From positions 1 through 35,821 of the forward strand of contig JACMOI010000065.1 in the NCBI GenBank assembly GCA_014378105.1: 35,821 nt of DNA, written 5' to 3'. The first letter of the stretch is position 1, and every line of letters begins with the position of its first letter. The position numbers and the translations under genes are program-made. This document shows, in pieces, positions 741-16,897 of the stretch. The notes under the pieces are model-generated. The model worked only from the letters and a program-made list of their open reading frames with translations, had not been told where the DNA came from and ran no database searches. This stretch comes from Pseudopedobacter sp. GTDB taxonomy: Bacteria > Bacteroidota > Bacteroidia > Sphingobacteriales > Sphingobacteriaceae.

Positions 741-1394
741 TTATCTTAAATCAACTACATCTACACCAGCATGCGCTTTTGGATCAAAGGTGAATGTAGC
801 ATCAGAAACCTTAACATTTGGAGTAAAACTTTTGATGGTATAAGTATAGACGTTTCCATTTTTGTCGTTTACCACGATATTTGAAATCTGTTTATTTATT
901 TTATCTACTCGTAATTTTATTTTAGAAAAAGAACGGGTTTGTAGTGGAGCCAATTCAATGTTTTGATAAACTCGCCCATTCAGTTTTGTATCCCCTAAAT
1001 AAATATATTTAAAACCTTTTTCATACATCGTAAAGATTTTGGCAGGGTTTAAAGCATCAGAACTGTTATCAATCTCACTGATCTGAACTTCATTATCATT
1101 TTTTAAATAAGTCCATTGTACCTGTCCATTAGAAATTAACTCTTGTCCACCAACGTTTACTTTATATTTATTTTGAGATGATTTTACTAATAAAATTCCA
1201 CTTTGGCTTTCGTTAATATTAGCTTGAGGGTTTTTTAAAGTGTAGCTAAAATCTGCCTTTACAACATTATACGACCTGTATTTTTTACTTACACCTGCTA
1301 ATATTGATTTTGCTGTAGCATCAGATTGTGCAAAAACGTTTCCAATGGTGGTTAGCAAAAACATTATCAACATCAATATATTTAATTTCTTCAT
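741..1394 (-). CDS. lolA: Outer-membrane lipoprotein carrier protein LolA
   Basis: LolA is the periplasmic chaperone that takes lipoproteins from the LolCDE complex to the outer membrane. The 217-residue length fits the family. A Sec signal peptide occupies about residues 1-22, ending NVFAQ. The mature part shows the LolA pattern: an early Y-x-A/S-F segment (VKADFSYTL), an internal QVQWTYLKNDNEVQI strand pair, and a late FDP motif (TFTFDPKAHAGVDVVDL). It lies one base downstream of ftsK on the same strand, a linkage often seen in Bacteroidota, so the two are almost certainly co-transcribed. The ATG start places the signal peptide correctly. Confidence 0.9.
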   Translation of the reverse strand: MKKLNILMLIMFLLTTIGNVFAQSDATAKSILAGVSKKYRSYNVVKADFSYTLKNPQANINESQSGILLVKSSQNKYKVNVGGQELISNGQVQWTYLKNDNEVQISEIDNSSDALNPAKIFTMYEKGFKYIYLGDTKLNGRVYQNIELAPLQTRSFSKIKLRVDKINKQISNIVVNDKNGNVYTYTIKSFTPNVKVSDATFTFDPKAHAGVDVVDLR

Positions 1395-1395
1395 T

Positions 1396-3972
1396 TTAAT
1401 CTTTTTTGTTCAAGTTAGACAAGAATTGTTCCAACGAATATTCATCTGGCATTAATACCTCTCTAGCTTTACTTCCTTCAAATGGGCCAACAATTCCTGC
1501 GCCTTCCAATTGGTCAATTATTCTACCTGCCCTGTTGTAACCTAATTTCAGCTTTCGCTGGATTAAAGAAGTAGAACCTTGTTGGTGCATCACTATTAAA
1601 CGGGCAGCATCCTCAAACATTGCATCACGATCGTTGGGGTCAAAATCTTTAACACTTCCGCCATCTCCATCATCGCCAACATATTCAGGAAGTATGTAAG
1701 CGGAAGCATAACCTCTTTGTTCTCCAATAAAATCGGTTACACGATCCACTTCTGGCGTATCTACAAATGCGCATTGCAAACGTATTAAATCACTACCTGT
1801 GGATAAAAGCATATCTCCTTTACCAATCAATTGATCAGCACCGCCACTATCCAAAATTGTCCTCGAATCTATTTTTGAAGTTACCCTAAAAGCTAATCGA
1901 GCTGGGAAATTGGCTTTAATTGTACCAGTTATGATATTTACCGAAGGTCTTTGGGTAGCTAAAACCAAATGAATCCCAATTGCCCTAGCCAATTGCGCTA
2001 ACCTTGCAATAGGTGTTTCTACTTCCTTACCGGCAGTCATCATTAAATCTGCAAACTCATCAATTACCAAAACAATAAAAGGTAAAAACTTATGTCCGTT
2101 ATTTGGGTTAAGCTTTCGCTTGATAAACTTCTCATTATATTCTTTTAAATTTCTTACACCTGCATCTTTTAACAGATCATAACGCTGATCCATTTCGATA
2201 CAAAGCGAATTAAGCGTATTGATTACTTTTTTTGTATCGGTAATAATCGCATCATCATCTCCTGGAAGTTTTGCCAAAAAGTGTCTCTCAATTTTTTTAA
2301 ACAGTGAAAGTTCTACCTTTTTTGGATCTACCAAAACAAATTTTAATTGCGATGGATGCTTTTTGTAAAGCAAAGAAACCAATATGGTATTGATACCAAC
2401 CGATTTACCCTGACCAGTTGCTCCAGCAACCAACATGTGGGGCATCTTAGCCAAATCGGCAATAAAAACTTCATTAGAAATGGTTTTACCCAAAGCAATC
2501 GGCAAATCCATCGTTGTATTCTGAAATTTCTCTGTTGCGATGATAGAACGCATAGAAACCATTTCTGGATGAGAATTTGGGACCTCAATTCCAATAGTTC
2601 CCTTACCTGGCATTGGCGCAATGATCCTAATCCCTAAAGCTGCCAAACTTAAAGCAATATCATCTTCTAAATTTTTGATTTTAGAAATCCTTACTCCCGC
2701 AGCTGGGATAATTTCATAAAGCGTAACGGTGGGACCAATAGTGGCTTTAATTTTATCAATTTCAATATTATAATTGTTAAGGGTTTCAACAATTTTATTC
2801 TTATTATTCTCTAATTCAGATGTATCAACCGCTATTTTTCCAGAACCATATTGCTCTAATAATTCTAGGGTTGGGTTTTTATAGGATGCTAAATCTAAAG
2901 TAGGATCAAATGCACCAAATTGCTCTACTAAATCTGCCGCTTTAGCATCCTCTTGCGTTCTTTCAATTGTTAGAGATAAATCTTCTTGATCTTCTATTTT
3001 TGGCGATGGCTTGCTGATTTTATTTACTACATCATCAAAATCTTCATTAACTTTAGAAATAGGCTCTTCTTTTTCTAAGGTATTTTCAACCTCAAAAGAA
3101 TTATCTTTAGTTTGGATAATTGGAACTATAGGATTATTTACTTGATTACTCCTTACCGGAAATTCTATTGGCGTGGTCGTATGATCATCATTATCTAAAA
3201 ATTCTTCCTCTTCTTCTTCCTCCTCATCAATAAAATTATTATCTGCTACAAAACTTTCTTTTATAGGTTTTGGTTTCCTTTCAGGGATTTTAAAATCTAA
3301 GTTATAAGCAATGATTAAACAAGTCAGTCCAGCAAAAATTAACAATGCACCAACTCCAGTAGAACCTATTTGTGCTTGTAATAAAAGATTTGAGAAATAA
3401 CCAAATTCTCCTTCTATGTAATGCGGATAATCGCCAATAAAAGAATGGAAAAAAGCTAAAGTGATGGAGGCAAAAATTAGTACAAAAAAACTATAAGCCA
3501 GTGTTTTATGTATTGATAATAATTTCACTTTAAACAATAATCTATAGCCAATAACTATAAAAACAAAAACAAAAATAAATGAAGCCAATCCAAACCATTC
3601 GTACATAAATTGGTGCGACAGTAAAGCTCCTAATTTGCCCGTCCAGTTTTGGATATTTGGATTAATTGCTCCATTAGATTTTAATTCGGCAACGGTTTTA
3701 AAAAGATTACTCCAACCTCCGTTTGCGTCTATTACATAACTTTGATCGTCTTGCCAAGTGAATAAATAAGAGGTTAATGAAACAAGAAAGTAAATAGATA
3801 GCAACAATAAAAATAGCCCAACAATTTTAATTGCCCTATCATTGTTAAAGCTGAACTTTGGCAATCCTTCCCTGTTTTCATTAATGATTTTCTTTTTATA
3901 AGGTTGTTGTAGTCCTTCCTGGGCTTCTTCCCTTATTGTGTTTTTTTTAAATTGGTTTCCTCTCACAGGCAT
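1396..3972 (-). CDS. ftsK: DNA translocase FtsK
   Basis: FtsK/SpoIIIE is a membrane-anchored hexameric motor that pumps DNA through the division septum and helps resolve chromosome dimers. The 858-residue protein has an N-terminal membrane domain with four hydrophobic segments (about 49-71, 130-148, 158-175, 205-223), then an acidic low-complexity linker (a run of glutamates near 250-256). The motor follows: Walker A GATGQGKS at about 516-523 and Walker B LVIDEFADL at about 634-642. The C-terminal winged-helix gamma domain (about 785-850; SLIQRKLKLGYNRAGRI) would read polar DNA motifs. It precedes lolA in an apparent two-gene operon, with a -7-like box at 3992-3999. Confidence 0.96.
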   Translation of the reverse strand: MPVRGNQFKKNTIREEAQEGLQQPYKKKIINENREGLPKFSFNNDRAIKIVGLFLLLLSIYFLVSLTSYLFTWQDDQSYVIDANGGWSNLFKTVAELKSNGAINPNIQNWTGKLGALLSHQFMYEWFGLASFIFVFVFIVIGYRLLFKVKLLSIHKTLAYSFFVLIFASITLAFFHSFIGDYPHYIEGEFGYFSNLLLQAQIGSTGVGALLIFAGLTCLIIAYNLDFKIPERKPKPIKESFVADNNFIDEEEEEEEEFLDNDDHTTTPIEFPVRSNQVNNPIVPIIQTKDNSFEVENTLEKEEPISKVNEDFDDVVNKISKPSPKIEDQEDLSLTIERTQEDAKAADLVEQFGAFDPTLDLASYKNPTLELLEQYGSGKIAVDTSELENNKNKIVETLNNYNIEIDKIKATIGPTVTLYEIIPAAGVRISKIKNLEDDIALSLAALGIRIIAPMPGKGTIGIEVPNSHPEMVSMRSIIATEKFQNTTMDLPIALGKTISNEVFIADLAKMPHMLVAGATGQGKSVGINTILVSLLYKKHPSQLKFVLVDPKKVELSLFKKIERHFLAKLPGDDDAIITDTKKVINTLNSLCIEMDQRYDLLKDAGVRNLKEYNEKFIKRKLNPNNGHKFLPFIVLVIDEFADLMMTAGKEVETPIARLAQLARAIGIHLVLATQRPSVNIITGTIKANFPARLAFRVTSKIDSRTILDSGGADQLIGKGDMLLSTGSDLIRLQCAFVDTPEVDRVTDFIGEQRGYASAYILPEYVGDDGDGGSVKDFDPNDRDAMFEDAARLIVMHQQGSTSLIQRKLKLGYNRAGRIIDQLEGAGIVGPFEGSKAREVLMPDEYSLEQFLSNLNKKD

Positions 3973-3991
3973 TCGTTAATTATTTACTCAA

Positions 3992-3999
3992 CAAATATA
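3992..3999 (-). promoter_or_regulatory. Candidate Bacteroidota -7 box for ftsK-lolA
   Basis: On the minus strand the sequence reads TATATTTG, an exact match to the phylum consensus TAnnTTTG, about 20 bases before the ftsK ATG. A clear TTTG -33 element at the usual 19-21 base distance is not seen, only a weak TGTG, so this is a half-supported promoter. Confidence 0.4.
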
Positions 4000-4018
4000 A
4001 TTTAATGATTTAGATGAT

Positions 4019-4252
4019 TGCACAGATTTTTTTTTCATTTCACAGATTGTTTTCGTGATTACTCAGATTTAGATAGTTACACAGATTTTCTTGGTTTTAT
4101 AAAGCTATGTAGCTTTTTACACTTTGTGGTTGATTGTCTGAATCATGATTTGCAGGATTTTAGGATTATTTTGATTAAACCTATAAAATGAAGATTAGCA
4201 AAATAAATTAGATTTGCTATTAATGAAAATTAGCGCATTAGTGGCAAAATAT
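4019..4252. repeat. Composite of degenerate intergenic repeats
   Basis: Four copies of (C/A)(A/T)CAGATT-like octamers start at 4021, 4041, 4062 and 4080, spaced 18-21 bases apart. They are followed by a CTGAATCATGATTTGCAGG-type segment (about 4138-4166) and an ATTAGCGCATTAGTGGCAAAA-like segment (about 4228-4248). I recall similar short repeats in spacers of many Bacteroidota genomes. They encode no ORF here and vary too much to be a CRISPR array. Confidence 0.5.
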
Positions 4253-4286
4253 CTATATCGTAGTTGTGTACATGATTAATTATAAT

Positions 4287-4423
4287 ATTTAGGTTAGTGG
4301 TGTAAAACCATTACCTAATAATCTTCGTATTTGTTATTATAATTCATTTAGGAATTTTTTCCATGATGTTTTAGGTTTTGATGGTTAAACCCTAGTTGAA
4401 TTAATTTTTAACTAGGGTTTTTT
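4287..4423 (+). ncRNA. Candidate small RNA or leader ending in a strong terminator
   Basis: A plus-strand intrinsic terminator at 4387-4423 has no plus-strand gene upstream of it. The neighbouring genes are ftsK, which reads away, and the ankyrin gene, which begins downstream. The segment before it can form a hairpin (about 4290-4319, TTAGGT...ACCTAA). The same ACCATTACCTAA arm can alternatively pair with TTAGGTTTTGATGGT at 4371-4385, just before the terminator stem. This could be an independent sRNA or a 5' leader with an attenuator for the ankyrin gene. No Rfam family is recognised. Confidence 0.3.
4387..4423 (+). terminator. Rho-independent terminator upstream of ankyrin gene
   Basis: Perfect 11-base stem AAACCCTAGTT (4387-4397) with AACTAGGGTTT (4410-4420), a 12-base loop and a following T-run. 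Orientation is plus. Confidence 0.7.
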
Positions 4424-4495
4424 AATTTTTAGAATTAATTAGCCATATATTTTAGCAAATACTTATAATTGCGTTTATTATTTTAATTTAGAATA

Positions 4496-5146
4496 ATGCT
4501 TCACAATAATTTAGAAGAATTAATTATTAAAGATGATGAGAATGACCTAAGGGAGTTCTTAAATAAGGATATTTCTCTATTAAAACAGCTTACCTCTCAT
4601 GACGTCTCGCCGTTAATGCTTTCCTGTTATTTTTCCAAAGCAAATGCGATAAAAGTTATTTTAGAATTTATAACCGATTTAAACCTTTTTGAAGCTGCCG
4701 CATCTGGAAAGTTTGATGAAGTTGCACATTTAATTTTTGTTGCCCCAGAAAAAATAAATGATTATTCGTCAAATGGATTCACTGCTTTAGGATTAGCAAG
4801 TTATTTTGGAAAAGAAGAAGTTGCAAGATATTTAGTTTTAAAAGGTGCAGACGTAAACCTGCCGTCAAATAATGGCTTTAATGTTTTTCCATTACATTCT
4901 GCAGTTGCTGCCAACAATTTAAATATTTCTAGAATGTTGATAGAAAATCATGCTTTAATTAATGTTTCGCAACAATCTGGAGTTACTCCATTACATTCTG
5001 CTGCACAAAATGGAAATGTAGAACTCATTATTTTATTACTGGAAAAAGGTGCTAAAGTAGATGTAAGAATGGAAGGCGGAAAATTACCCGCAGACTTGGC
5101 TAATGAAAAAGGTTATACGGAAATAGCTGAGATTTTAAGCACTTAA
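4496..5146 (+). CDS. Ankyrin-repeat protein
   Basis: The 216-residue cytosolic-looking protein has no signal peptide and consists almost wholly of ankyrin repeats. Recognisable units include GFTALGLASYFGKEEVARYLVLKGADVN (about 94-121, quoted here only as a pattern of TALxLAxxxGxxEVxxxLLxxGAxxN), NVFPLHSAVAANN (about 129-141) and GVTPLHSAAQNGNVEL (about 163-178). A last unit ends PADLANEKGYTEIAEIL. Ankyrin repeats are protein-binding scaffolds, and no catalytic domain is attached. It sits alone on the plus strand behind a terminator and overlaps the convergent PspC gene by four bases. Partner and role are unknown. Confidence 0.88.
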   Translation: MLHNNLEELIIKDDENDLREFLNKDISLLKQLTSHDVSPLMLSCYFSKANAIKVILEFITDLNLFEAAASGKFDEVAHLIFVAPEKINDYSSNGFTALGLASYFGKEEVARYLVLKGADVNLPSNNGFNVFPLHSAVAANNLNISRMLIENHALINVSQQSGVTPLHSAAQNGNVELIILLLEKGAKVDVRMEGGKLPADLANEKGYTEIAEILST

Positions 5147-5364
5147 ATCTCCTTAAACTGAATTCTGATTTTTTTAACGTAATTTCTGATGTCTAAAAAG
5201 AAAGCTGCAAAAAAGTAAAAAACTAGGGGAAAGCCAACGGCTAAAAACGAGGCGTAAATAAAAAACAGCCTAATTTTAGTTTGCGATATTTTAAATTTCT
5301 CTCCCAAATAGGTGCAAACCCCAAAAGAATAACGTTCAAAGAAAATTAAAATACGATTTAACAT
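5143..5364 (-). CDS. PspC-domain membrane protein
   Basis: The short 73-residue protein carries the PspC signature: a basic, aromatic start (LNRILIFFERYSFGVCTYLGEKF) in which the usual GVCxGLAxYF turn is GVCTYLGEKF. A single hydrophobic segment follows (about 31-55), with a basic tail. In enterobacteria PspC takes part in the phage-shock response. Stand-alone PspC proteins in Bacteroidota are often next to PadR regulators or GIN-domain proteins, but here the neighbour is a DUF2851 gene four bases upstream on the same strand. Likely inner-membrane; the specific role is inferred only from the family. Confidence 0.75.
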   Translation of the reverse strand: MLNRILIFFERYSFGVCTYLGEKFKISQTKIRLFFIYASFLAVGFPLVFYFFAAFFLDIRNYVKKIRIQFKEI

Positions 5365-5368
5365 GTTT

Positions 5369-6655
5369 TTATGCGCTAAGTATTTTTAAACCAATCACAC
5401 AATTTAAACATTTTTTTTGATCACAGTAATTTTTTTTCAAATGAATTACCGCCTGGCTATCAAAACTGTTCTGAGCAGACAATCCTCTTTCTTTAAATCC
5501 TTTGGTAATAATGTTGCTTTCAGGGTTAATATTTTCTAAAACCTCTAACGCCCTATCAATAAATTGTTTGTCTCCAATTTGTTTACCATAAAAGAATAAA
5601 AGTGGGGCTATGGCATTTATCAAAATGATTTCGATACTAGATTTTCCTAGATTAACTGATTTTTTATTAACCTCTTTATCAAACAAAAAATGCTTTTCCC
5701 AATAATTATTGATGGTCAAACCCTTAAATAATTTCACATAATCGGATTGCTTTTTTATATCGATTATTTTTGAAAATAAATGAGAAGATTTTATCACCAA
5801 GGCTGCAAATTGAGAAAGGCGAATAGTTGGGAAATTATCAGGACGAGTTTTAGAGAATTTCCAAAGACTTGCTTCCAAACTATTCAATTGATATTTTTTC
5901 TTTAAAAAATCAAATTCAACTTTCAATTGATTGGGATAATCATCATCAAATTTCCTATCCAACAATCCCGAAACGCCAAAAAACAAAGCTTCAATCTGTA
6001 ATGGATTATTTTTATGCTTCGCTAAAATATTTTGGGGCAACTGCTTAGCTAAAATCTCTAAAGGCAAACTGTTAACCTTAAAACCGAAGCTTTTAGCTAA
6101 CGCAATGTAAAATGTATCTTCCAAATTCCCTTTGTTTAGTTGATATATCTCATTGATGATGTTTGCTTTATCTTCCAAACGCTCCATCATCATCCTATCT
6201 AAAGTTTGTTGTTTGATAAAATTATCCACATTGGGCAACTGATTTTCGCAGGGAATCCAATAATTATTTTGCCTTAGCTGGTCGTAGTTTTCAATTATCC
6301 TTTTATCGATGATATTTTTGAGTTCTAAAACTGGAATAGTTGTTTGGTCGGTTCTTTTTATTTCTACATCATTTTCCCAAACCACATGTAGAATTACATT
6401 ATCATAAGCTTTATCAACATCATGACGATGCTTTAACCAATCAGAAGATTTTAAATGGATTTCTACATTTCCAGCCCAAATAGTTTCTCCGATCTTAATT
6501 TTAGATTGATGGAAATCTGGCCCAGCATCCATATTATGAATTCCTGTAGCAATAATTTGCAATGTCTCGCCCTCAAAAGTTCTCAACCCAAGCGGATTAA
6601 AAAACTTGTACTTCCATATAAAATGTAAAATAGCTTCTGATGAGGGTATTGCCAT
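5369..6655 (-). CDS. DUF2851 family protein
   Basis: The 428-residue soluble protein matches the DUF2851 family found almost only in Bacteroidota. Its N-terminus has the typical SEAILHFIWKYKFFNPLGL segment and then the conserved NMDAGPDFHQSKIKI and WAGNVEIHLKSSDWLKH blocks (about 41-95). The D-AGPDF and VEIH...SDW patterns resemble a nuclease-like core, but no function has been shown that I know of. The C-terminus ends with a four-cysteine cluster (CDQKKCLNCVIG), which may bind metal or an Fe-S cluster. The gene ends four bases before pspC, so the pair is likely co-transcribed. Confidence 0.85.
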   Translation of the reverse strand: MAIPSSEAILHFIWKYKFFNPLGLRTFEGETLQIIATGIHNMDAGPDFHQSKIKIGETIWAGNVEIHLKSSDWLKHRHDVDKAYDNVILHVVWENDVEIKRTDQTTIPVLELKNIIDKRIIENYDQLRQNNYWIPCENQLPNVDNFIKQQTLDRMMMERLEDKANIINEIYQLNKGNLEDTFYIALAKSFGFKVNSLPLEILAKQLPQNILAKHKNNPLQIEALFFGVSGLLDRKFDDDYPNQLKVEFDFLKKKYQLNSLEASLWKFSKTRPDNFPTIRLSQFAALVIKSSHLFSKIIDIKKQSDYVKLFKGLTINNYWEKHFLFDKEVNKKSVNLGKSSIEIILINAIAPLLFFYGKQIGDKQFIDRALEVLENINPESNIITKGFKERGLSAQNSFDSQAVIHLKKNYCDQKKCLNCVIGLKILSA

Positions 6656-6960
6656 GGTTAAATTTAGGGAAAATAATTATTAAGTCAACAATTGGTTTAA
6701 TCTCAATCACTACAAATAAGATTGAATGCAAATCTTAAAATAAACTACCTCGACCCAAGGGTACGAGGTATTAAGTAGGAATTATTTTTTTATTTCGACG
6801 CAAGCGTCGGGGAATTAGACCCTAAAATTGATTTAAAAAATATACTAAATCGATAATAGATAATATTCAATGATTTTGCAAACTTAGAACTACTTACTTT
6901 TAGAAATAATTTAATGACGTCCTATTGACCATCGCAGTGTACTTACCTTATCTACTTCCC
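6656..6960. other. Spacer between DUF2851 gene and GG-leader peptide
   Basis: No gene is seen. It holds two REP-like palindromes (6746-6770 and 6796-6809) and an AT-rich remainder. Confidence 0.5.
6746..6809. repeat. Pair of REP-like palindromes
   Basis: First hairpin: TACCTCG (6746-6752) with CGAGGTA (6764-6770). Second: CGACG (6796-6800), CAAG loop, CGTCG (6805-6809). Each is followed by a similar GGAATT/GGTATTAAG-like sequence, suggesting two diverged copies of one repeat. The GC-rich arms stand out from the AT-rich spacer. CGACGCAAGCGTCG-type palindromes recur in related genomes as far as I recall. Confidence 0.55.
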
Positions 6961-7092
6961 TCACTTTACAAAAGCACCAGTTATTACCATCGCACAATTG
7001 GCATCACAAAGTCTAAAAATCCTAAATCTACGATCTGTTCCACCAATAACCATTTTCATTTCATTTTTAGTCAATCTTACAAAAGTTTTCAT
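6961..7092 (-). CDS. GG-leader (double-glycine) peptide, putative bacteriocin/RiPP precursor
   Basis: A 43-codon minus-strand ORF begins MKTFVRLTKNEMKMVIGG. This is the Bacteroidota version of the double-glycine leader (L-S/T-x-x-E-M-K-x-[VIL]-[ILM]-G-G) cleaved by C39-peptidase ABC exporters. The predicted 25-residue core is TDRRFRIFRLCDANCAMVIT followed by GAFVK. It is basic at first, then hydrophobic, with two cysteines three residues apart (C-x-x-x-C), which could form a disulfide or be modified. Start ATG at 7090-7092, stop TGA at 6961-6963. No exporter, peptidase or modifying enzyme is encoded within this window, so it is an orphan. It is divergent from the PhzF-like operon. The leader match is strong; bioactivity is inference. 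Confidence 0.65.
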   Translation of the reverse strand: MKTFVRLTKNEMKMVIGGTDRRFRIFRLCDANCAMVITGAFVK

Positions 7093-7205
7093 GTTACTAT
7101 TATTTATAAATGCCGTTGCTTTTATATCTTAAATCTAAGAATCTAAAAAGGAATAAAAATCTTATTTTACTTAAATCTTTTTAACTTCATCGGTCAGATT
7201 AAAAA

Positions 7206-7994
7206 ATGAATAAACTAACTATATATCAAGTAGACGCTTTTACTAATCATGTTTTTGGTGGTAATCCAGCAGCCGTTTGTATCCTTAACTACTGGTTAGC
7301 TAGTGATTTAATGCAAAAAATAGCCTCAGAAAACAATCTTTCAGAAACTGCATTTTTAGTAAAAGAAAAGGATCAATATCATATCAGATGGTTTACCCCA
7401 ACTATAGAGGTAGATCTTTGTGGTCATGCTACTTTATCTTCCGCCCATATTTTATTCGAGTTTGGGTTTGAAAGTAGTAAACAAATTAATTTCTTCTCAC
7501 AAAAAAGTGGGGTTTTATCAGTTTCAAGAAATGAACACCTTTTAACTTTAGATTTCCCTATAGATAATATTTGCGAGGTAGAATTAACAGAAGAGCTATC
7601 TACACCATTTGATTTTGCGCCAATTGCAGCGTTTAAAGGAAAAACTGATTATTTATTGGTTTTTGAAAAAGAAGCAGAAGTAAAATTACTTGAACCAGAT
7701 TTCGTAAAATTAGCAAAGATTAATTGTAGAGGAATTATTGCAACAGCAAAAGGAGAAAAAGTAGATTTTGTATCTCGTTTTTTTGGACCAAAAACAGGTG
7801 TAAACGAAGATCCTGTGACAGGATCGGCACATACCACACTTGCGCCTTATTGGTATAAAAAATTAGATAAGACTAAAATGATCGCAAAACAGATATCCGA
7901 AAGAGGTGGAGATTTAGAGATTGAATTTGCCGGGGATAGAGTCAAAATTAGCGGTAGGGCAATTACTTATATGAAGGGAGAAATTTATTTTTAA
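7206..7994 (+). CDS. PhzF family isomerase/epimerase
   Basis: PhzF-like proteins share the diaminopimelate-epimerase double hot-dog-like fold and usually catalyse isomerisations. The PhzF of phenazine producers acts on dihydro-hydroxyanthranilate, but most homologues have unknown substrates. The 262-residue protein shows the family blocks QVDAFTNHVFGGNPAAVC (about 8-25), NLSETAF (about 44-50, containing the acid usually used for catalysis), DLCGHATLSSAH (about 70-81) and NEDPVTGSAHTTL (about 200-212). It lacks other phenazine genes nearby, so phenazine synthesis is not implied. Its TAA overlaps the ATG of the DUF3820 gene by one base, marking the first gene of a three-gene operon. Confidence 0.9.
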   Translation: MNKLTIYQVDAFTNHVFGGNPAAVCILNYWLASDLMQKIASENNLSETAFLVKEKDQYHIRWFTPTIEVDLCGHATLSSAHILFEFGFESSKQINFFSQKSGVLSVSRNEHLLTLDFPIDNICEVELTEELSTPFDFAPIAAFKGKTDYLLVFEKEAEVKLLEPDFVKLAKINCRGIIATAKGEKVDFVSRFFGPKTGVNEDPVTGSAHTTLAPYWYKKLDKTKMIAKQISERGGDLEIEFAGDRVKISGRAITYMKGEIYF

Positions 7995-8206
7995 TGGATA
8001 CACAAATTCTACTAGATCTAGTAAAAGTTAGAATGCCCTTTGGTAAATATAAAGAAAGGTTACTTTGCGATTTACCGGTATCTTATTTAGAATGGTTTGC
8101 CAGCAAAGGTTGGCCACCTGGTAAATTAGGCCAACAATTGGCAACTATTTATGAAATTAAATTGAATGGATTGGAAAGTTTGTTATCACCTTTGAGAAAA
8201 AGATGA
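7994..8206 (+). CDS. DUF3820 family protein
   Basis: The 70-residue protein matches DUF3820 (also labelled putative quorum-sensing-regulated virulence factor in Pfam, a label without clear meaning here). Typical features are the RMPFGKYKERLL motif near residue 13, LPVSYLEWFASKGWP (about 28-42) and a charged C-terminal helix. No catalytic residues are evident. It overlaps phzF by one base and the secreted-protein gene by four bases (ATGA), so translation of the three is probably coupled. Confidence 0.8.
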   Translation: MDTQILLDLVKVRMPFGKYKERLLCDLPVSYLEWFASKGWPPGKLGQQLATIYEIKLNGLESLLSPLRKR

Positions 8207-9684
8207 AGTATCTCTTAATTTTTGTTTTTCTATTCAGTTTTTTGTGCTTACAAACTCAAGCTCAGGTTTGTACTGGGAGTTTAGGGGATCCAACAGTTAC
8301 CATAAATTTTGGAACAGGAACGGGTGTAGGACCGCCATTAGGATCTGCTTTTACCGATTATCCTTTTAGTAGTGATGAATGTCCAAAAGATGGCTTTTAC
8401 TTAATAGTTAACAAAACAAATAATTGTTTTAATGGAAGTTGGCAAACCCTAACTGAGGATCATACACCTGGAGATACAAATGGTTATATGATGCTCGTTA
8501 ACGCAAAAGAATCAGCTGATATATTTTATACATTTTCAGTGGATAATTTATGTCCAAATACAACCTATGAATTTTCCTCATATATCATTAATATGTTGAA
8601 GGCTAATGTTGTTTGTAATAATCCACCAATTTCTTACCCACAAATTATATTTCGTGTTGAAACTGAATCTGGTAATTTTATTACTTCCTATGACACTGGT
8701 TTAATTTACGGAACTAACGTACCTGAATGGAAAAAATACGGGTTCTTTTTTAAAAGTCCGCCTAATACATCTAAAGTAGTTTTAAAACTAATAAATAAAA
8801 CAATAATCGGTAAATGTGGTAACGATCTAGCTTTAGATGATATAACTTTTAGGCCCTGCGGCCCAACTATTTTAGCAAATGAAGTGAATGCTACCGCTGG
8901 TGGCACCCTTACACTTTGCGAGGGTGCAACTGCAGATTATAGCTTTAACGCAGATGTTTCTGACGGGTATCAGGACCCAGCTTTTCTTTGGCAGGAGGAT
9001 AAACATGATGGGAATGGCTGGTTAGATATTCTAAATACTAACTCGAAAACATATCAAGCATTGATTACCAATGCAGATACCAAAGGATATTCTTTTAGGA
9101 TAGCAGCTGCCGAAAAAGAAAATATTGGAACGGTTAGTTGCAGAGTTTATTCTAATCCTATTGAAGTTACAGTTGTAAAAAATTTAGTTATTGATGCTGG
9201 CAAGGATATTTTTATTTTAGAAAATTCTTCAGTAAAAATATTGGCCACGGCTCCAGCAGATTTAGTTTATCAATGGTTACCAAGCAACTATTTAAGCGAT
9301 GCTAAAATTTTGCAACCCATTGTTAAACCAAAAGAAACCACTACTTATCAATTAATAGTTACAGATTTAAATAGTGGTTGCGTGGCAACAGATGAAGTTA
9401 CCGTTCATGTTGATTTGGATATTAAAATACCAAATACTTTTAGTCCTAATGGTGATGGCGTAAATGACCTTTGGCAAATTCAAGGTTTGTTAGGAAGTAA
9501 TGATGTTGATGTTACTATTTTCAATAGAAATGGACAGAAAGTATATTATTCAAAAGGTTACCCTAAAGCCTGGGATGGTAGATTAAAGAATATTAATTTA
9601 CCTCAGGGAATGTATTACTACATAATTGATACCCATTCACAAATCCGTTCTATTTACCGAGGCAGTTTGTTGATTATTTACTAA
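8203..9684 (+). CDS. Secreted T9SS type B cargo with CHU_C (gliding-motility-associated) C-terminal domain
   Basis: The 493-residue protein has a Sec signal peptide (about 1-20, ending LQTQAQ). An N-terminal cysteine-containing beta domain opens with a VTINFGTGTGVGPP segment, as in many Bacteroidota surface proteins. Two Ig/PKD-like regions follow (about 215-315 and 325-400), then a CHU_C domain at about 402-493. The CHU_C motifs are IPNTFSPNGDGVNDLWQI, VTIFNRNGQKVYYSKGY, WDGR and LPQGMYYYIIDT. This C-terminus directs export by type IX secretion and surface attachment or release. No enzymatic domain is seen, so an adhesin or surface-structure role is likely. It is the last gene of the operon. 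Confidence 0.88.
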   Translation: MKYLLIFVFLFSFLCLQTQAQVCTGSLGDPTVTINFGTGTGVGPPLGSAFTDYPFSSDECPKDGFYLIVNKTNNCFNGSWQTLTEDHTPGDTNGYMMLVNAKESADIFYTFSVDNLCPNTTYEFSSYIINMLKANVVCNNPPISYPQIIFRVETESGNFITSYDTGLIYGTNVPEWKKYGFFFKSPPNTSKVVLKLINKTIIGKCGNDLALDDITFRPCGPTILANEVNATAGGTLTLCEGATADYSFNADVSDGYQDPAFLWQEDKHDGNGWLDILNTNSKTYQALITNADTKGYSFRIAAAEKENIGTVSCRVYSNPIEVTVVKNLVIDAGKDIFILENSSVKILATAPADLVYQWLPSNYLSDAKILQPIVKPKETTTYQLIVTDLNSGCVATDEVTVHVDLDIKIPNTFSPNGDGVNDLWQIQGLLGSNDVDVTIFNRNGQKVYYSKGYPKAWDGRLKNINLPQGMYYYIIDTHSQIRSIYRGSLLIIY

Positions 9685-9937
9685 ATTCGGTTTTTACTTT
9701 TTTCTGTACAAGAAATTCCTTTCTGAAAATTAACTGAATACAATTAAAATCCCGTTAGTTACCATCGCCGATGAAGTAGGAAAAACAACCAAATTTCTTT
9801 ATAAAAAAAGGTAATTCAACAAAATATTGACGCAAACCAAGACCGTTTAATAACCCAGATAAATTTTCTTAGACTTTATTTTATGATTTTTAGAGAGTTT
9901 AAACCTGATTTCGATCATTAATGTCTAATAAAGTTTC

Positions 9938-10075
9938 ATTTGGGCGTTTTAACACGCTATTCGTTTAAGTTTTTTTGCTATTTGCGTAAAGGTAAGAGCA
10001 AAAAAAACTACCACTTCTATCGTTAAAGATGTAACCTAATCTAGAACAATGCGCAAACTAAACACAGGCGCTCAT
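9938..10075 (-). repeat. Dispersed intergenic repeat, copy 2 (inverted relative to copy 1)
   Basis: Bases 9938-9958 are the exact reverse complement of 588-608. Reading the minus strand, a CCTGTGTT box, a TTAACGAT block and a T-run with GCT occur in the same order as in copy 1. The 15 or so bases around each landmark are divergent. No transposase remnant was seen inside. Confidence 0.55.
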
Positions 10076-10124
10076 TTACTAATCGAATCTCAGGTTTTTT
10101 GATTATAAAAAAATATTTTAAAAT

Positions 10125-10157
10125 AAAAAAAGAATCCAAATTGGATTCCTTTTTTAT
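10125..10157 (-). terminator. Terminator of the thrS-infC-rpmI-rplT operon
   Basis: AGAATCCAA (10131-10139) faces TTGGATTCCT (10141-10150) with a one-base bulge, flanked by A- and T-runs. It could act in both directions; the gene that ends next to it is rplT on the minus strand. Confidence 0.65.
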
Positions 10158-10178
10158 TTTCCTAAAACAGAATATTAT

Positions 10179-10523
10179 TTATTTTACTGCATCAAATACT
10201 GCCTTAAAAGCATCTGGATGATTCATTGCTAAATCTGCAAGAACCTTCCGGTTTAGGCCGATATTTTTAACAGCAACTTTTCCGATAAATTGAGAATAAG
10301 ACATTCCATGCTCACGAGCGGCAGCGTTTATACGCTGTATCCATAAACCTCTGAATTCTCTTTTCTTAACTTTTCTGTCTCTAAAGGCATATTGTAAACC
10401 TTTTTCAACAGTATTTTTCGCAACGGTGTAAACCTTGCTTCTTGAACCCCAATAGCCTTTGGCTAGGTTCATGATTTTTTTTCTTCTTCTTCTTGACGCT
10501 ACTGCGTTAACCGAACGTGGCAT
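10179..10523 (-). CDS. rplT: 50S ribosomal protein L20 (bL20)
   Basis: The 114-residue basic protein begins [20 protein letters not shown], the typical bL20 N-terminus, and contains the conserved [30 protein letters not shown] helix region and the [19 protein letters not shown] block. It binds 23S rRNA early in large-subunit assembly. In other bacteria L20 can repress its own operon by binding the mRNA; no such site is evident here. It is the last gene of the operon, 74 bases after rpmI and before a terminator. Confidence 0.97.
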
Positions 10524-10597
10524 AATTTTAATTGTTTTTGGTAAGAGGTGATTCCTTTAACAGAATACTTAAACCCAATCCCTGGTTAATAATTTTT

Positions 10598-10798
10598 TTA
10601 TTTTCCGATGGCAAGCATACGTTTAACATTCCCCATGTCTCCGTCAGAAACTAACTGAGTGTGAGTTAAGTTGCGTTTTTGCTTGGTGGTCTTTTTAGTA
10701 AGAATGTGGCTTTTGTAGGCACTCTTTCTTTTGATTTTACCTGTTCCAGTAAGCGAAAAACGCTTTTTAGCACTAGAATTGGTTTTCATTTTTGGCAT
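10598..10798 (-). CDS. rpmI: 50S ribosomal protein L35 (bL35)
   Basis: The 66-residue basic protein begins [20 protein letters not shown] and has the bL35 pattern [20 protein letters not shown]. It is a component of the large ribosomal subunit. It lies between infC (30 bases upstream) and rplT, the usual order in most bacteria, so it should be on the same transcript. Confidence 0.96.
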
Positions 10799-10828
10799 AA
10801 TAATGCTTTTTAATTTAATCTGTTAATA

Positions 10829-11383
10829 TTAATTTTTTCCTGATTTAGGCGCTACTGTCAAGAACATTCTTTTACCTTCCAATTTTGGCAATAATTCTAC
10901 TTTACCAACATCTTCTAAAGCTTGAGCAAATTTTAATAACAAAATTTCCCCCTGTTCTTTATAAACTATCGCTCTTCCTTTGAAATGAACATAGGCTCTC
11001 ACCTTTTCACCATTCTCTAGAAAAGAAACAGCATGTTTTAATTTAAATTGAAAATCGTGATCGCTAGTGTTAGGTCCAAAACGGATTTCCTTAATCACCG
11101 TTTGTTTAGCATTAGCTTTAATTTCTTTCAGCTTTTTCTTTTGCTCGTAAACAAACTTATTATAGTCAACAATTTTACATACTGGAGGTACAGCGTTAGG
11201 TGAAATCTCGACTAAGTCAAGATCCATTTCTATTGCCATCTCCAATGCTTTTTCTATAGGGTAAATTCCCTGCTCTATATCCTCACCAACTACCCTAACT
11301 TCTTTAGCTCTAATTCTTCTATTGATATTATGAGCCGGTTCTGTTATTCGTCTGCTTCTATTCGGATTCAATTTTGGTCTAAT
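10829..11383 (-). CDS. infC: Translation initiation factor IF-3, probably AUU-initiated
   Basis: IF-3 binds the 30S subunit, prevents premature 50S joining and checks the start codon. The N-domain ([21 protein letters not shown]), the lysine-rich linker (about 80-95) and the C-domain ([20 protein letters not shown]) are all clear; the length is near 184 residues. No ATG is in frame before the conserved region. The first plausible start is ATT at 11383-11381, six bases after GGAGG (11394-11390), giving an N-terminus [20 protein letters not shown] at 11371 is possible but lacks any ribosome-binding site. A rare start codon matches the known autoregulation of infC in E. coli. It follows thrS by 22 bases. 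Confidence 0.93.
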
Positions 11384-11396
11384 GATTGTCCTCCAT
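11381..11396 (-). promoter_or_regulatory. Strong Shine-Dalgarno and AUU start of infC
   Basis: Minus strand reads ATGGAGGACAATCATT. GGAGG ends six bases before ATT. Strong Shine-Dalgarno sequences are rare in this phylum, so it decides the start. An out-of-frame five-codon ORF (ATG at 11396, encoding MEDNH, stop TAG at 11381-11379) overlaps both the Shine-Dalgarno and the ATT. Confidence 0.6.
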
Positions 11397-11405
11397 TTTT
11401 ATTAT

Positions 11406-13331
11406 TTATACTAAAATTTCTTTTTGAAGATGATTGCTAAATTCTTCTATGCTCATCACCCCTACATCACCTTCTCCATGTTTTCTTACAGAAACCGTAC
11501 CATCTAATGCTTCCTTCTCTCCAATAATCAACATAAAGGGGATTTTTTTGATTTCTGCGTCTCTAATTTTCCGACCAATCTTTTCATCCCGCATGTCAAT
11601 CAAACCGCGAATATCGGAATTATTTAACGATTCTAAAACATTTTTTCCATATTCTTCAAATTTCTCTGAAATAGGCAAAATAATAAATTGTTCTGGCGTC
11701 AACCATAAGGGAAAATTACCCGCACAATGTTCAATTAAAACCGCAACAAATCTTTCTAAAGAACCAAATGGAGCTCTATGAATCATCACAGGGCGATGTT
11801 TCTGATTATCACTTCCAGTGTATTCTAATTCGAATCTTTCCGGTAAATTATAATCTACCTGAATAGTTCCCAACTGCCATTTCCTGCCTAAAGCATCTTT
11901 CACCATAAAGTCCAGTTTTGGACCGTAAAATGCAGCTTCGCCAAGCTCTACTACCGTTGTCAATCCTTTTTCGGCAGCGGCTTCAATAATTGCCGATTCA
12001 GCTAATTCCCAATTTTCATCAGAACCAATATATTTTCCTTTATTTGAAGGGTCACGTAAAGAAACTTGAGCAGTATAATTTTCGAAACCTAAAGCTTTGA
12101 AAACATGTAGCACTAAATCGATTACCTTTTTAAACTCTTCTTTCACCTGATCTGGGCGACAAAATAAATGCGCATCATCTTGAGTAAAACCTCTTACTCT
12201 GGTTAAACCATGTAATTCGCCACTTTGCTCATAACGGTAAACTGTTCCAAACTCCGCTAAACGAACTGGTAAGTCTTTGTAAGAACGTGGTTTAAATTTA
12301 TATATCTCACAGTGGTGAGGACAGTTCATTGGTTTTAAAAAGAACTCCTCTCCTTCTTGCGGAGTTTTTATGGGTTGAAAAGAATCTGCTCCATATTTAT
12401 CATAATGACCTGAAGTGACGTATAAATTTTTATGTCCAATATGTGGAGTAATTACCTGCTCATAACCCGCTTTTTGCTGAGCTTTTGATAGAAAATTCAC
12501 TAACCTTTCTCTTAAAGCAGTTCCTTTAGGTAACCATAATGGTAATCCCATTCCCACTTTTTCAGAGAAGGTGAAAAGCTCTAATTCTTTCCCTAGTTTA
12601 CGGTGATCACGCTTTTTAGCCTCTTCAATCATGTGAAGATATTCAGTCAACTCACTTTGCTTAGGAAAAGTTACCCCATAAATACGTGTTAATTGCTTTC
12701 TAGTCTCGTCTCCACGCCAGTAAGCACCAGCAACATTCATCAGCTTTACAGCTTTGATAAAGCCAGTGTTTGGAATGTGCGGACCACGACATAAATCGGT
12801 AAAATTACCTTGTGTATAAAAAGTGATTTTTCCGTCTTCCAAATCCTTGATTAAATCAAGTTTGTATTCGTCACCTTTTTTCTCGAAATATTTTATCGCT
12901 TCAGCTTTTGAGACCGCTTCTTTGGTATATTCTGATTTGGTGCGGGCTAATTCTAATACTTTATCTTCTATCTTTTTAAAATCATCAGAAGAAAACTCTC
13001 GGTCTCCAAAATCAACATCGTAATAAAAACCTGTTTCTATTGCCGGACCAATTCCGAATTTAGTTTCAGGATATAAAGACTCAAGAGCTTCTGCTAATAA
13101 GTGAGCTGAAGAATGCCAGAAAGTAGATTTCCCATTCGTATCGTTCCAGGTTAATAACTTAACGCTAGCATCAGCATCGATGGGCAGAGATGAGTCAACC
13201 ACTTTTCCGTTTACTTCTGCTGCTAGTACATTACGGGCTAAACCTTCGGAGATAGAAAGCGCAATTTGGTGCGCAGTGGTTCCTTTTTCATATTCCCGAA
13301 TAGAACCATCGGGAAGTGTAATTTGAATCAT
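11406..13331 (-). CDS. thrS: Threonine--tRNA ligase
   Basis: ThrRS is a class II synthetase that charges tRNA-Thr and edits mischarged serine. The 641-residue protein has the TGS domain (about 1-60, [20 protein letters not shown]), the N2 editing domain with [11 protein letters not shown] (about 73-83, which includes the editing HxxxH), and the catalytic core. Zinc ligands are C336 in MNCPHHC and later histidines. Motif 2 is [15 protein letters not shown] and motif 3 is [11 protein letters not shown]. The C-terminal anticodon-binding domain starts near 545 ([15 protein letters not shown]). The length is standard. It heads the thrS-infC-rpmI-rplT operon behind a 5' hairpin (13372-13389). Confidence 0.97.
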
Positions 13332-13371
13332 TTACAATATGATTTATAAGTTGTGAAAAAATCTAAACGTT

Positions 13372-13389
13372 CACTCATACAAATGAGTG
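13372..13389 (-). promoter_or_regulatory. Hairpin in thrS 5' leader
   Basis: CACTCAT (13372-13378) and ATGAGTG (13383-13389) form a perfect 7-base stem with a 4-base loop, about 41 bases before the thrS start. There is no T-run, so it is not a terminator. It could be a translational operator for ThrRS, as in E. coli, but it shows no evident anticodon-like loop. Confidence 0.35.
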
Positions 13390-13403
13390 CTTTTAATTAA
13401 ATG

Positions 13404-13411
13404 CAAAAATA
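13404..13411 (-). promoter_or_regulatory. Candidate -7 box for thrS operon
   Basis: Minus strand reads TATTTTTG, an exact TAnnTTTG match. Transcription starting a few bases later would give a leader of about 65 bases containing the 13372-13389 hairpin. A matching -33 TTTG is not evident. Confidence 0.4.
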
Positions 13412-13515
13412 GAGGATTTTTTTCAGGATTCTACTTTTCTTTTAATTGATATAGAAATCAGTAATGATTAAATGTACAACAATTTAAGGTTCAATAATTT
13501 GAAAAGCAGTGAAAT

Positions 13516-13812
13516 TCAAAGTAGACTCAAACCAGTATATGCTAAAAACAAACATTCGATCACTAAAAAGACTTTTTTAGAGATATTATCACTTTTGATA
13601 AGGTCCACAATGATTATAATGATAGCAATTAAACTAATAATGAACACAAAAATCACGGCTTGATAAGCCTCAGAAAAGAATGGCCAAAATCCATTGAACA
13701 TTTTTTGTTGCTCCTCAAAATTGAATTTTAAATTCCTTGAATAAATTGATGAATAAAGAAAATATACTTGAAATAGAATTACAGATATTATCAAATACTT
13801 AAATTTTTTCAT
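13516..13812 (-). CDS. Small membrane protein of unknown function (98 aa)
   Basis: Three hydrophobic segments can be seen at about residues 5-21, 47-70 and 81-97, separated by a polar loop with an NFEEQQKMFNGFWPFF segment. No named domain is recognised. I prefer ATG at 13812 (MKKFKYLIISV), a standard basic-hydrophobic start, over an upstream start at 13860 that would add a cysteine-rich stretch. It lies downstream of the LldE-like gene, on the same strand with a 69-base gap. It is AT-rich with an isoleucine run, like a fast-evolving accessory gene. Confidence 0.6.
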   Translation of the reverse strand: MKKFKYLIISVILFQVYFLYSSIYSRNLKFNFEEQQKMFNGFWPFFSEAYQAVIFVFIISLIAIIIIIVDLIKSDNISKKVFLVIECLFLAYTGLSLL

Positions 13813-13881
13813 TTTATTTTTTTTGTAACCGCAGTAAATAGAGGCACTACAACAACTCAAACTTAAAAATTAAAATGCTCA

Positions 13882-14610
13882 TCAAACATTCCCCCAACCA
13901 GTAGCCAAAACATCTGCCAAATGCATGGTTTTTATGGATAGTTGATGTTGATCTATGTAGCCTTGCAACTGCAACAAACAGGAAGCATCGGTTGAAATAA
14001 TGTATTCTGCACCAGTTTCTAAGGCATTTTGAACTTTTTGCTCTGCCATAGCTGATGAAATTCCGGCAAATTTAACCGCGAAGGTTCCACCAAAACCACA
14101 GCAAACTTCCTGGTCTTTCATTTCTACAATCTCCAAACCCAATACTTTAGATAATAGTTGACGGGGTTCTTCTTTTATTCCACATTCTCTTAAACCACTA
14201 CAAGAATCGTGAAAAACTGCTTTACCTAAAAGTTCAGCTCCAAAATAATCCTTCTTTAAAACGTTGATTAGAAAATCTGATAACTCATAGATATGAGACT
14301 GGATATTCTTACACTTATTATGAATGGTGGTATTGAAAAACAAATCGTCATAAGCGTTTTTGACCATCCCTGTACAAGATGCAGATGGAGAAACAATATA
14401 ATTTTGTTCAGAAAAATCGTTTAAAAACTTACTTCCTACTTCTTTAGCTTCGTCCCAAAAACCGGCATTATAAGCGGGTTGACCACAACAAGTTTGATCT
14501 GGATTATAAATTACTTTGCAACCCGCTTTCTCTAAAACTTTTAAAGTGTTTTTCGCTGTTGTTGGATAAAGCTGATCTACAAAGCAAGGAATAAAGAGTT
14601 CTACGTTCAT
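13882..14610 (-). CDS. (Fe-S)-binding protein, LldE/LutA-like
   Basis: The 242-residue protein is two cysteine-rich (CCG) domains, as in LutA/LldE, GlpC and heterodisulfide reductase HdrB. CCG motifs are at about 41-43 (QTCCGQPAYNAG) and 170-172 (VCCGFGGTFAVK); further cysteines sit in SASCTG and DSCSGLRECG. LutA with LutB and LutC oxidises L-lactate in B. subtilis, but lutB and lutC homologues are not in this window. The gene is instead behind an MFS transporter, so lactate use is only a family-based guess. ATG at 14610 is chosen over TTG at 14619, since the protein then begins MNVELFIPCFVDQLYP like the family. Confidence 0.85.
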   Translation of the reverse strand: MNVELFIPCFVDQLYPTTAKNTLKVLEKAGCKVIYNPDQTCCGQPAYNAGFWDEAKEVGSKFLNDFSEQNYIVSPSASCTGMVKNAYDDLFFNTTIHNKCKNIQSHIYELSDFLINVLKKDYFGAELLGKAVFHDSCSGLRECGIKEEPRQLLSKVLGLEIVEMKDQEVCCGFGGTFAVKFAGISSAMAEQKVQNALETGAEYIISTDASCLLQLQGYIDQHQLSIKTMHLADVLATGWGNV

Positions 14611-14662
14611 TAAAGTCAAAAGTAATAAGTTTAAAGTTTAAAGTCATTTTTAAATCTTTAAA

Positions 14663-15985
14663 TCAATTCGTTTTTAAATTGAATAAACGTTCTTTTTTTA
14701 AAACAGAGAATAACATCACTAAACCGATGATAAAGAATATTGCTAAACTCACGGCAGAGTTTCTCATATTCCCGGTTAGTTCTTCGATAAATCCGAAACT
14801 GAATAAACCAGCTACTATCGCTAACTTTTCGGTCACATCATAAAAACTAAAGAATGAAGCGGTATCTGGCGTGTTTTCTGGTAAGAATTTAGAAAACGTA
14901 GATCTAGATAAAGACTGAATCCCCCCCATAATTAAGCCAACAACTGCTGCTAAACCATAGAATTGAAATTCATTTTGAATAAAATACGCTACCACACAGG
15001 CACCAATCCAAATGACAACTACAAAAATCAACACTTTTATATTTCCAAAAACATTGGATAACCGCGACATTAAATAAGCACCTAAAATAGCCACTAATTG
15101 GATAATCAAAATAGTTGCAATTAACTTTTCAGTTCCCAAATTCAATATTTTTTCCCCGAAATTTGCTGCTACCAACATGATGGTTTGTACGCCCATAGCA
15201 TAGAAAAAATAAGCAATTAAAAATGTTTTTAAAACGGGCATTTCCTTTAATTGAGACCAAACTTTTCTTAGTTCTTCGTAGCCACTGGCCACTTTTGTTT
15301 TCTCAGCTTTATTATAATTAGGGCTTCCTTTTGGCAAAACGGTGAATGGAATATAGGAGAACCCTATCCACCAGATTCCTACTAATAAAAATGATAGTCT
15401 TGCGGGAAGTGTCGCATCAGTAATTGCAAAAAGGTCGGGTTTTAAAACAAATACAAAACAGATGATTTGTAATAAAACACTTCCTATATATCCGTATGAA
15501 AAACCTTTGGCACTTACCTTATCTTGCTGATCTGGCGTGGCGATATCGGGTAAATAAGAATTATTAAAAACAATTCCTCCACAATATCCAATTGCCGCTA
15601 AAGCAAATAAGATCACACCCAATTCCAAATGATTTTTATCAAAAAAGAATAAGCCGCAGCAAGCTAAGGCGCCTAGCCAAGTAAAAATAATCATGAATAT
15701 TTTTTTGTTTCCTCGATAATCTGCGGTTGCTGTTAATAAGGGCGTAATGATAGCGATGATGAGATAAGCTACAGCTAAGGCATAATTTGTCAATGCGGTA
15801 TTCACGAATTTTATCCCAAAAAAATAAACTTTATCATTTATTAACTCACCATTTACCTTTGTAGATGTTATCGCTGTATAATAAGCGGGGAAAATGGTCG
15901 AGGTGATTACCAAATTATAGGCGGAATTTGCCCAATCGAACATTGCCCAAGCTCTAATGGTCTTTTTGTTATTTTTGAAGGTCAT
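14663..15985 (-). CDS. MFS transporter, UMF1/Atg22-like
   Basis: The 440-residue protein has about 11-12 hydrophobic segments. It starts with the signature AWAMFDWANSAYNLVITSTIFP (split here: the AWAMFDWANSAY core is at about 12-23), which is typical of the UMF1 family related to the yeast vacuolar effluxer Atg22. Substrates of bacterial members are unknown. It is 43-52 bases upstream of the LldE-like gene on the same strand, suggesting joint transcription, and divergent from the zinc-ribbon gene at 16028. Inner-membrane. Confidence 0.87.
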   Translation of the reverse strand: MTFKNNKKTIRAWAMFDWANSAYNLVITSTIFPAYYTAITSTKVNGELINDKVYFFGIKFVNTALTNYALAVAYLIIAIITPLLTATADYRGNKKIFMIIFTWLGALACCGLFFFDKNHLELGVILFALAAIGYCGGIVFNNSYLPDIATPDQQDKVSAKGFSYGYIGSVLLQIICFVFVLKPDLFAITDATLPARLSFLLVGIWWIGFSYIPFTVLPKGSPNYNKAEKTKVASGYEELRKVWSQLKEMPVLKTFLIAYFFYAMGVQTIMLVAANFGEKILNLGTEKLIATILIIQLVAILGAYLMSRLSNVFGNIKVLIFVVVIWIGACVVAYFIQNEFQFYGLAAVVGLIMGGIQSLSRSTFSKFLPENTPDTASFFSFYDVTEKLAIVAGLFSFGFIEELTGNMRNSAVSLAIFFIIGLVMLFSVLKKERLFNLKTN

Positions 15986-16027
15986 TAACGTTGGTTTAAG
16001 GAAAAATCTTTAACAAGTATAAATTAA

Positions 16028-16713: not shown

Positions 16714-16897
16714 TTTTATTTTTAATCTGAGTCCAAAACTGCCTGATAAATCCGGTAATAGCAATAAGCACTATTCCTATTAAGAAACCATATTTCTTTT
16801 CTATTAAGCCTGGAGAAATATTAGTTAATGATAAAGTTAATGCGATTACTAAAGCAAGCCAAATCAATATTAAAAGCATTAGAAATATGTTTTTCAT
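16697..16897 (-). CDS. Small two-segment membrane protein (66 aa)
   Basis: Two hydrophobic segments (about 3-25 and 37-54) with a short loop and a basic C-terminus (RQFWTQIKNKTNDRF). ATG at 16897 is preferred over TTG at 16915. No family is recognised. It sits 38 bases downstream of the GIN-domain lipoprotein gene on the same strand and may be part of that transcript. Confidence 0.55.
   Translation of the reverse strand: MKNIFLMLLILIWLALVIALTLSLTNISPGLIEKKYGFLIGIVLIAITGFIRQFWTQIKNKTNDRF

Follow-up and report, generated by a model that had tools for sequence, protein, structure and literature searches.

An orphan double-glycine leader peptide gene of Pseudopedobacter sp. and a candidate exporter system encoded elsewhere in the assembly

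A GG-leader precursor gene without adjacent export genes

The analysed window, a stretch of 35,821 nucleotides that represents all of contig C97 of the Pseudopedobacter sp. assembly, contains on its minus strand (positions 6961..7092) a real gene for an orphan precursor peptide of the known double-glycine (GG) leader kind, the core of which remained unmatched. With somewhat better than even confidence, the deduced product is regarded as a class II or bacteriocin-like precursor that is most likely processed in trans by the ABC exporter encoded on contig C173, competition being its likeliest use. The first-pass annotation, which had proposed a GG-leader precursor probably processed in trans, was right for the most part; the mechanism is ordinary for this kind of precursor, and only the core of the peptide is new.

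The assignment of the gene is based on its translation, on a leader HMM and on the DNA similarity of its leader. Translation of the minus strand yielded 43 codons followed by a stop codon (MKTFVRLTKNEMKMVIGGTDRRFRIFRLCDANCAMVITGAFVK), comprising an 18-residue leader that ends in GG (MKTFVRLTKNEMKMVIGG, 7039..7092) and a predicted mature core of 25 residues with a single C-x3-C motif (TDRRFRIFRLCDANCAMVITGAFVK, 6964..7038). The leader was recognised by translation, by the HMM and by the pattern EMKxVxGG, and a cut after the GG is predicted. The HMM was built from 14 leaders of other genomes of the family, with the window peptide, the C173 precursors and the loci L107 and L110 (leaders of differing length) left out. 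It assigned 20.3 bits to the window peptide and 8.8 bits to the next best of the 297 small readings that begin with ATG in the window, a number that includes nested starts. These data bear out the earlier description of a 43-codon GG-leader gene with a 25-residue C-x-x-x-C core, and a computed net charge of +2.4 at pH 7 and a pI of 9.7 agree with the claim that the core is basic.

The gene is overlapped on the plus strand by a 73-aa ORF with a TTG start (6925..7146), which matched no NCBIfam family at E<=1 and was judged to be spurious, as already proposed. The neighbours of the peptide gene are a DUF2851 gene on the minus strand (5369-6655) and a PhzF-like gene on the plus strand (7206-7994). 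Downstream of the peptide gene, a terminator-like stem-loop with a T-rich tail was detected on the minus strand (6748..6760; one found versus a mean of 0.1 in shuffled sequences), which represents a consensus match only, and promoter scans were uninformative (five found, 3.4 expected). Three matches to the Flavo-1 RNA exceeded the gathering score, located at 526-600 and 35560-35668 on the plus strand and at 9946-10034 on the minus strand. The domain search revealed no C39 domain on the contig, and no modifying enzyme was seen on reading the window ORFs of at least 80 aa, three of whose proteins were also scanned against Pfam; the orphan position claimed for the gene is supported.

Sister precursors and a C39 exporter on contig C173

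A search of the assembly with the window peptide retrieved the peptide itself, two leaders encoded on C173 (E 0.003 and 0.004) and a poor match on C147 (E 1.15). The C173 leaders belong to a gene cluster specifying an HlyD protein (913-2205), a C39-peptidase ABC exporter (2293-4467), a thioredoxin-like protein (4464-4949), an unassigned protein of 328 residues (4933-5919), a precursor consisting of MENFVKLSKNEMKMVVGG and 40 further residues (5970-6146), a thioredoxin-like protein of the AhpC/TSA type (6340-7476), a second precursor consisting of MENLVKLSKSEMKMVVGG and 36 further residues (7526-7690) and a fusion of C39-like, VKOR and thioredoxin domains (7930-9516). No radical SAM domain was present in the six proteins of this cluster that were scanned. 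The exporter sequence displays the DCG cysteine, a histidine and an aspartate.

Both C173 precursors contain the leader motif EMKMVVGG, which is nearly that of the window peptide, and the window leader is identical to that of the first precursor at 13 of 18 positions and to that of the second at 11 of 18. At the DNA level, the leader of the window peptide matches the two C173 precursors with 82% over 60 nt and 76% over 72 nt. Across the 18 leader codons, NG86 gave dN values of 0.13-0.18 and dS values of 0.77-0.91, which are rough figures because YN00 failed for one pair and returned a negative dN for the other. According to the leader (GG end, conserved E and hydrophobic positions), the window peptide is a member of the class II-like GG-leader precursors that are exported by C39 systems. 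The assembly contains four C39 domain matches over the cut-off on three contigs, one of the four being the VKOR fusion, and the one full exporter of C173, with its HlyD protein, adjoins the two sister precursors; an exporter elsewhere in the genome had been anticipated by the first-pass annotation. Within the genus, C39 domains occur in five of 18 genomes.

Two further C39-ABC ORFs of the assembly are located on C147 and C69. Near them, glycine-rich peptides of 55 aa ending in CLGWW are encoded (L011 on C147, 10679-10846, minus strand; L012 on C69, 7323-7490, plus strand), which look like class IIb-type bacteriocins and gave only sub-cut-off matches in NCBIfam. ORFs that we take to be rhomboid-like and Xre-like are also found close to these peptides.

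Starting from the observed ORF, leader, sister precursors, exporter and redox genes, we infer that the peptide gene is expressed and that its leader would be recognised in trans by the C39 peptidase domain of the C173 ABC exporter. The precursor would then be cleaved behind the GG, and the basic, partly hydrophobic core of 25 residues would be exported with HlyD to the periplasm or beyond, where its two cysteines may be closed to a disulfide by the thioredoxin-like and VKOR proteins of the cluster. Competition with related bacteria would be the likeliest use, with signalling as the alternative.

The core of the peptide and the question of decay

The C173 cores are acidic (charge -3.2 and -2.3), comprise 40 and 36 residues and contain six cysteines each, whereas the basic window core with its two cysteines is the shortest among 19 aligned precursors, the alignment being a hand selection in which L114, L115 and L116 were shortened to an inner ATG and from which, for example, L089, L090, L094, L096, L100 and L106 were left out. 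Because it is shorter, basic and equipped with two cysteines, unlike the acidic six-cysteine cores of C173, the window core is possibly a poor substrate or a relic. Searches of Pfam, NCBIfam, PDB, plasmids and phages yielded no match to the core sequence other than sub-threshold or unrelated ones, consistent with the earlier statement that the core was not recognised; the PDB matches were seven unrelated-looking chains with E values of at least 0.12, and the single match in viral contigs reads as a 13-residue frame without a start.

Beyond the leader, the DNA of the window peptide showed no convincing similarity to the two C173 precursors (p 0.049 and 0.43 in 2000 single-base shuffles), and the post-leader DNA of the latter two showed no similarity to each other (p 0.93). 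A conserved leader followed by a freely varying core is usual for precursors of this kind.

The short core and the lack of an orthologue would also be expected from a decaying precursor, in which mutation has shortened the core behind a surviving leader and nothing useful is made, an explanation that we consider rather unlikely. In its favour, the neighbouring minus frame over the end of the core (ORF 6911-6997) also contains cysteines, as would a shifted Cys-rich core; a frameshift relic derived from this observation was set aside on the grounds that the DNA lacks convincing similarity to both C173 precursors, yet it was kept as a rival. The post-leader DNA gives no clear trace of a parent core, the leader has a dN below dS in the rough NG86 estimate and a terminator-like site is present, three points that argue against decay without being strong.

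Comparison with known systems and likely use

With respect to its leader pattern [K/R]LS+xEMKxVxGG, the window peptide resembles the 'bacteriocin-like protein' family NF047798 (leader_Chryseo) and the Cys-rich GG precursors of the taxonomic family, from which it differs by the missing NF047798 match and by a short, basic core with two cysteines instead of a Cys-rich one. A weak leader similarity also exists to TIGR04149 (GG_sam_targ_CFB), a family of radical SAM-modified RiPPs, although the score of 13.4 bits lies below the curated cut-off of 25 bits.

Bacteroidetocins, as characterised by Coyne et al. (2019, PMC6671954), likewise combine a GG leader, a C39 ABC transporter, partners of the thiol oxidoreductase type, which are here part of the C173 cluster, and a mature peptide that is basic and contains two or more cysteines. 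They are described there with leaders of 15-16 aa, mature peptides of 42-48 aa in the core group and ancillary genes (exporter, membrane-fusion and thiol oxidoreductase genes) close by, whereas the window peptide has an 18-aa leader and a 25-aa core, and no match to the C173 machinery is located within about 1.5 kb. A precedent for such a dispersed arrangement is provided by the prochlorosins, the precursor genes of which can lie dispersed in the genome, at a distance from the machinery that serves them (PMC10783134); but they are lanthipeptides, produced by an enzyme of the LanM type.

Small GG-motif proteins that depend on a C39 transporter in a Gram-negative cell are represented by EbfG1-4 of Synechococcus elongatus, which require PteB and serve biofilm formation (PMC4997328); they differ in being encoded on a four-gene transcript and in their biofilm function. 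This precedent, together with the fact that no immunity gene was recognised beside the peptide gene, favours a secreted signal or biofilm peptide that uses the same export route and is not antimicrobial. Such a role seems doubtful: a lineage-restricted, variable core would fit antagonism better than a conserved signal, and neither a receptor nor a regulator was recognised beside the peptide gene. On a more speculative level, and with equally little confidence, the gene may specify a solitary precursor that was mobilised recently and has a new, minimal core: 25 residues, basic, with one possible disulfide that would close a small C-x3-C ring. It would use in trans the exporter and oxidase system of a different, Cys-rich precursor family, the leader in common serving as a general 'export tag' for a core of a wholly different kind.

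The reading preferred here, a bacteriocin-like precursor processed in trans, has implications for the detection of such peptides. GG-leader precursors are often found by looking beside exporters, and the window peptide would be missed in this way; it is of some use precisely because it would escape cluster-based mining. The curated family models that were tried also miss it, yet the leader makes it recognisable. If export in trans holds true, the set of secreted peptides in the family would be larger than cluster-based mining shows. Moreover, the core is a small and easily synthesised candidate for activity tests against related bacteria.

A variable genome segment and the origin of the contig

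The first-pass annotation had made its reading depend on conservation of the frame in close relatives, and this expectation failed. No match to the window peptide was found at E<=0.01 in the 17 further genomes of the genus; a weak match in G010 (E 0.037), interrupted by two internal stops, was the only one. No orthologue was detected in 398 other genomes of the family, the 17 congeners included, where a weak match in G245 (37%, E 0.006) stood alone; the search has little power for a protein this small and its first pass scored few candidates per genome, and therefore weak or distant relatives could be missed. Since the surrounding segment is absent from G010 and different in G007, the outcome points to a variable segment and not to the lack of a gene.

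This segment (6674..10124) was delimited by comparison with G010 and G007 and contains the peptide gene, the PhzF gene (7206-7994), an ORF of about 70 aa (about 7994-8206), which we take to be DUF3820-like, and a gene for a CHU_C protein (8203-9684). In G010, window position 6673 joins 10125 across about 90 bases, so that all four genes are missing between DUF2851 and rplT, and in G007 proteins of 1781 and 314 residues are encoded at this place. One of the Flavo-1 matches (9946-10034, minus strand) lies just within the right edge of the segment. A second copy of the block from PhzF to CHU_C, with 73% nucleotide identity, is located on C173 (L010, 13167-15708), and homologues are present in G017, G003 and G016. 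In both copies of the assembly, GG precursors adjoin the PhzF/CHU_C block or are situated a few kb away, the latter applying to the C173 precursor cluster.

The assembly comprises 3.35 Mb in 191 contigs, with a completeness of 96.68 and a contamination of 6.38%, and the origin of the contig was examined by comparison with G007 and G017. The left part of the window (741-6666, with LolA, FtsK, ankyrin and DUF2851 genes) is about 84-86% identical to G007 at the nucleotide level, while second, G017-like copies exist of FtsK on C99 (96.6% to G017) and of DUF2851 on C54 (97.6% to G017). Between FtsK and the ankyrin gene, a stretch at about 4008-4257 matches many places in G007 and represents a dispersed repeat. 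Position 10125-13405 is 93.7% identical to G017, and the right end is colinear with contig C16 of G017 (25031-26552, 85.1%; 28180-30513, 92.8%; 30644-35682, 93.8%), with 26553-28179 remaining unmatched. The thrS gene is present in a single copy, the protein being 98% identical to that of G017. Thirteen GTP_EFTU matches were obtained in the assembly; eight of the nine loci compared were clearly G017-like (87-99% nucleotide identity), and the ninth (L146) was distant from both G017 (78%) and G007 (75%).

By these identities, the left end of the contig is foreign, through transfer or misassembly, because it is G007-like and its genes recur in G017-like form on other contigs of the assembly; the right part is native. 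The idea that the whole contig is a contaminant, suggested by the second DUF2851 copy and the GTP_EFTU loci, was overturned by thrS and the colinear right end. Within about 560 kb sampled from the assembly, second copies were found for six of 29 window proteins (lolA, ftsK, ank, DUF2851, PhzF and the CHU_C gene), a count that is not random because C99, C54 and C173 were chosen after earlier searches had pointed there. Contig C173 is assigned to the G017-like main organism by its identity to G017 of 97.4% over 15001-17139 and 91-92% over 10096-16000. An exporter to the left of the window was considered from synteny, as G010 has one about 8 kb from DUF2851, but it could not be deduced in this way because G007 has no C39 domain match.

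The segment with the peptide gene is located between the foreign left and the native right part and has no homology tie to the main organism. That the precursor stems from another organism, brought into this genome by binning or assembly, and that the C173 exporter is not its partner, appears quite unlikely, even though the G007-like left part with its second copies, the contamination value and the missing C39 match in G007 are in line with it. Against it stand the three stretches on the right side, which resemble the main organism with 92.8-93.8% identity to G017, the single copy of thrS and a leader whose nearest counterparts are those of the main organism's C173 precursors. This near-unique leader argues, short of proof, that the peptide belongs with C173, and the C173 exporter and the window peptide gene are likely to reside in the same organism.

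The leader in other genomes and against chance

No curated family of Pfam or NCBIfam claims the window peptide. Bacteriocin_IIc of Pfam reached 16.3 bits with a gathering cut-off of 27.1 bits, TIGR04149 stayed below its cut-off as stated above, and NF047798 was not among the NCBIfam families listed for the peptide at E<=10. The two C173 precursors scored 15.3 and 15.2 bits against NF047798, below the cut-off of 23.5 bits. A chance ORF, for which the mere 43 codons and the missing curated family could be cited, is a very improbable explanation, since the peptide reached 20.3 bits, whereas the top score in 100 order-2 Markov randomisations of the entire window was 10.4 bits, and the DNA similarity is limited to the start and leader of two exporter-adjacent precursors.

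In 16,109 readings from 1.82 Mb of loci, in which overlapping loci were counted more than once and pattern-fetched loci were excluded, only the C173 precursors (20.7 and 21.1 bits) and one cysteine-free ORF of G017 (16.4 bits) otherwise attained at least 9 bits. This kind of ORF, at about 16 bits by the leader profile, is encoded at L233 (contig C13 of G017, 7629-7802, plus strand); its 57 aa include EMKRVIGG and lack cysteines, and it may be a further orphan or else a caution that scores of this size can arise by chance.

The pattern EMKxVxGG, coded as GARATGAARNNNGTNNNNGGNGG, gave 53 matches in 18 of 121 genomes of the family, versus four matches for the backward control pattern, and the EMKMV form accounted for three of the 53, all in this assembly. 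Thirty of the 53 loci were fetched, and 24 were judged to be clean short GG precursors; L087, L091, L092, L097, L103 and L104 were dropped, of which L091 and L092 may be genuine if a different start is used. The 24 loci are not all independent (L088/L105 and L090/L106 overlap, and L113 is the C173 locus), and contig ends truncate some of them. Related precursors often neighbour such machinery: by tblastn with the C173 and C147 proteins (E<=1e-3, a threshold that generic thioredoxins can pass), 14 of the 24, including that of C173, had a thioredoxin-like, VKOR/C39 or C39-ABC match no farther than about 1.5 kb away, and none was found within this distance at the other ten, including the window locus (L102). 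At E<=0.01, which is an E threshold and not the curated cut-off, NF047798 matched 13 of the 19 aligned precursors, the window peptide not being among them.

In the literature, the strings EMKMVIGG, EMKMVVGG, LSRAEMKNV, leader_Chryseo and NF047798 were absent from the published papers searched, no publication joining Sphingobacteriaceae, double-glycine and precursor peptide was found, and titles and the beginnings of abstracts contained no description of the window peptide.

A tighter EMKMV pattern yielded ten loci over 84,980 species, a scan that may have omitted records close to the genome of the window. Nine of these loci were set aside, as they offered no short, ATG-started precursor-like reading with the motif near its start; among them, L126 is a 50-residue frame without an ATG. 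The tenth is a clean ATG-started GG precursor of Parabacteroides sp. 52 (MKKLEKMTLQKKAEVLNEQEMKMVVGG...). At this locus (L125, about 7557-7579, minus strand), the leader EMKMVVGG is combined with a CNGSC core, and the exporter encoded nearby is 57% identical to that of C173.
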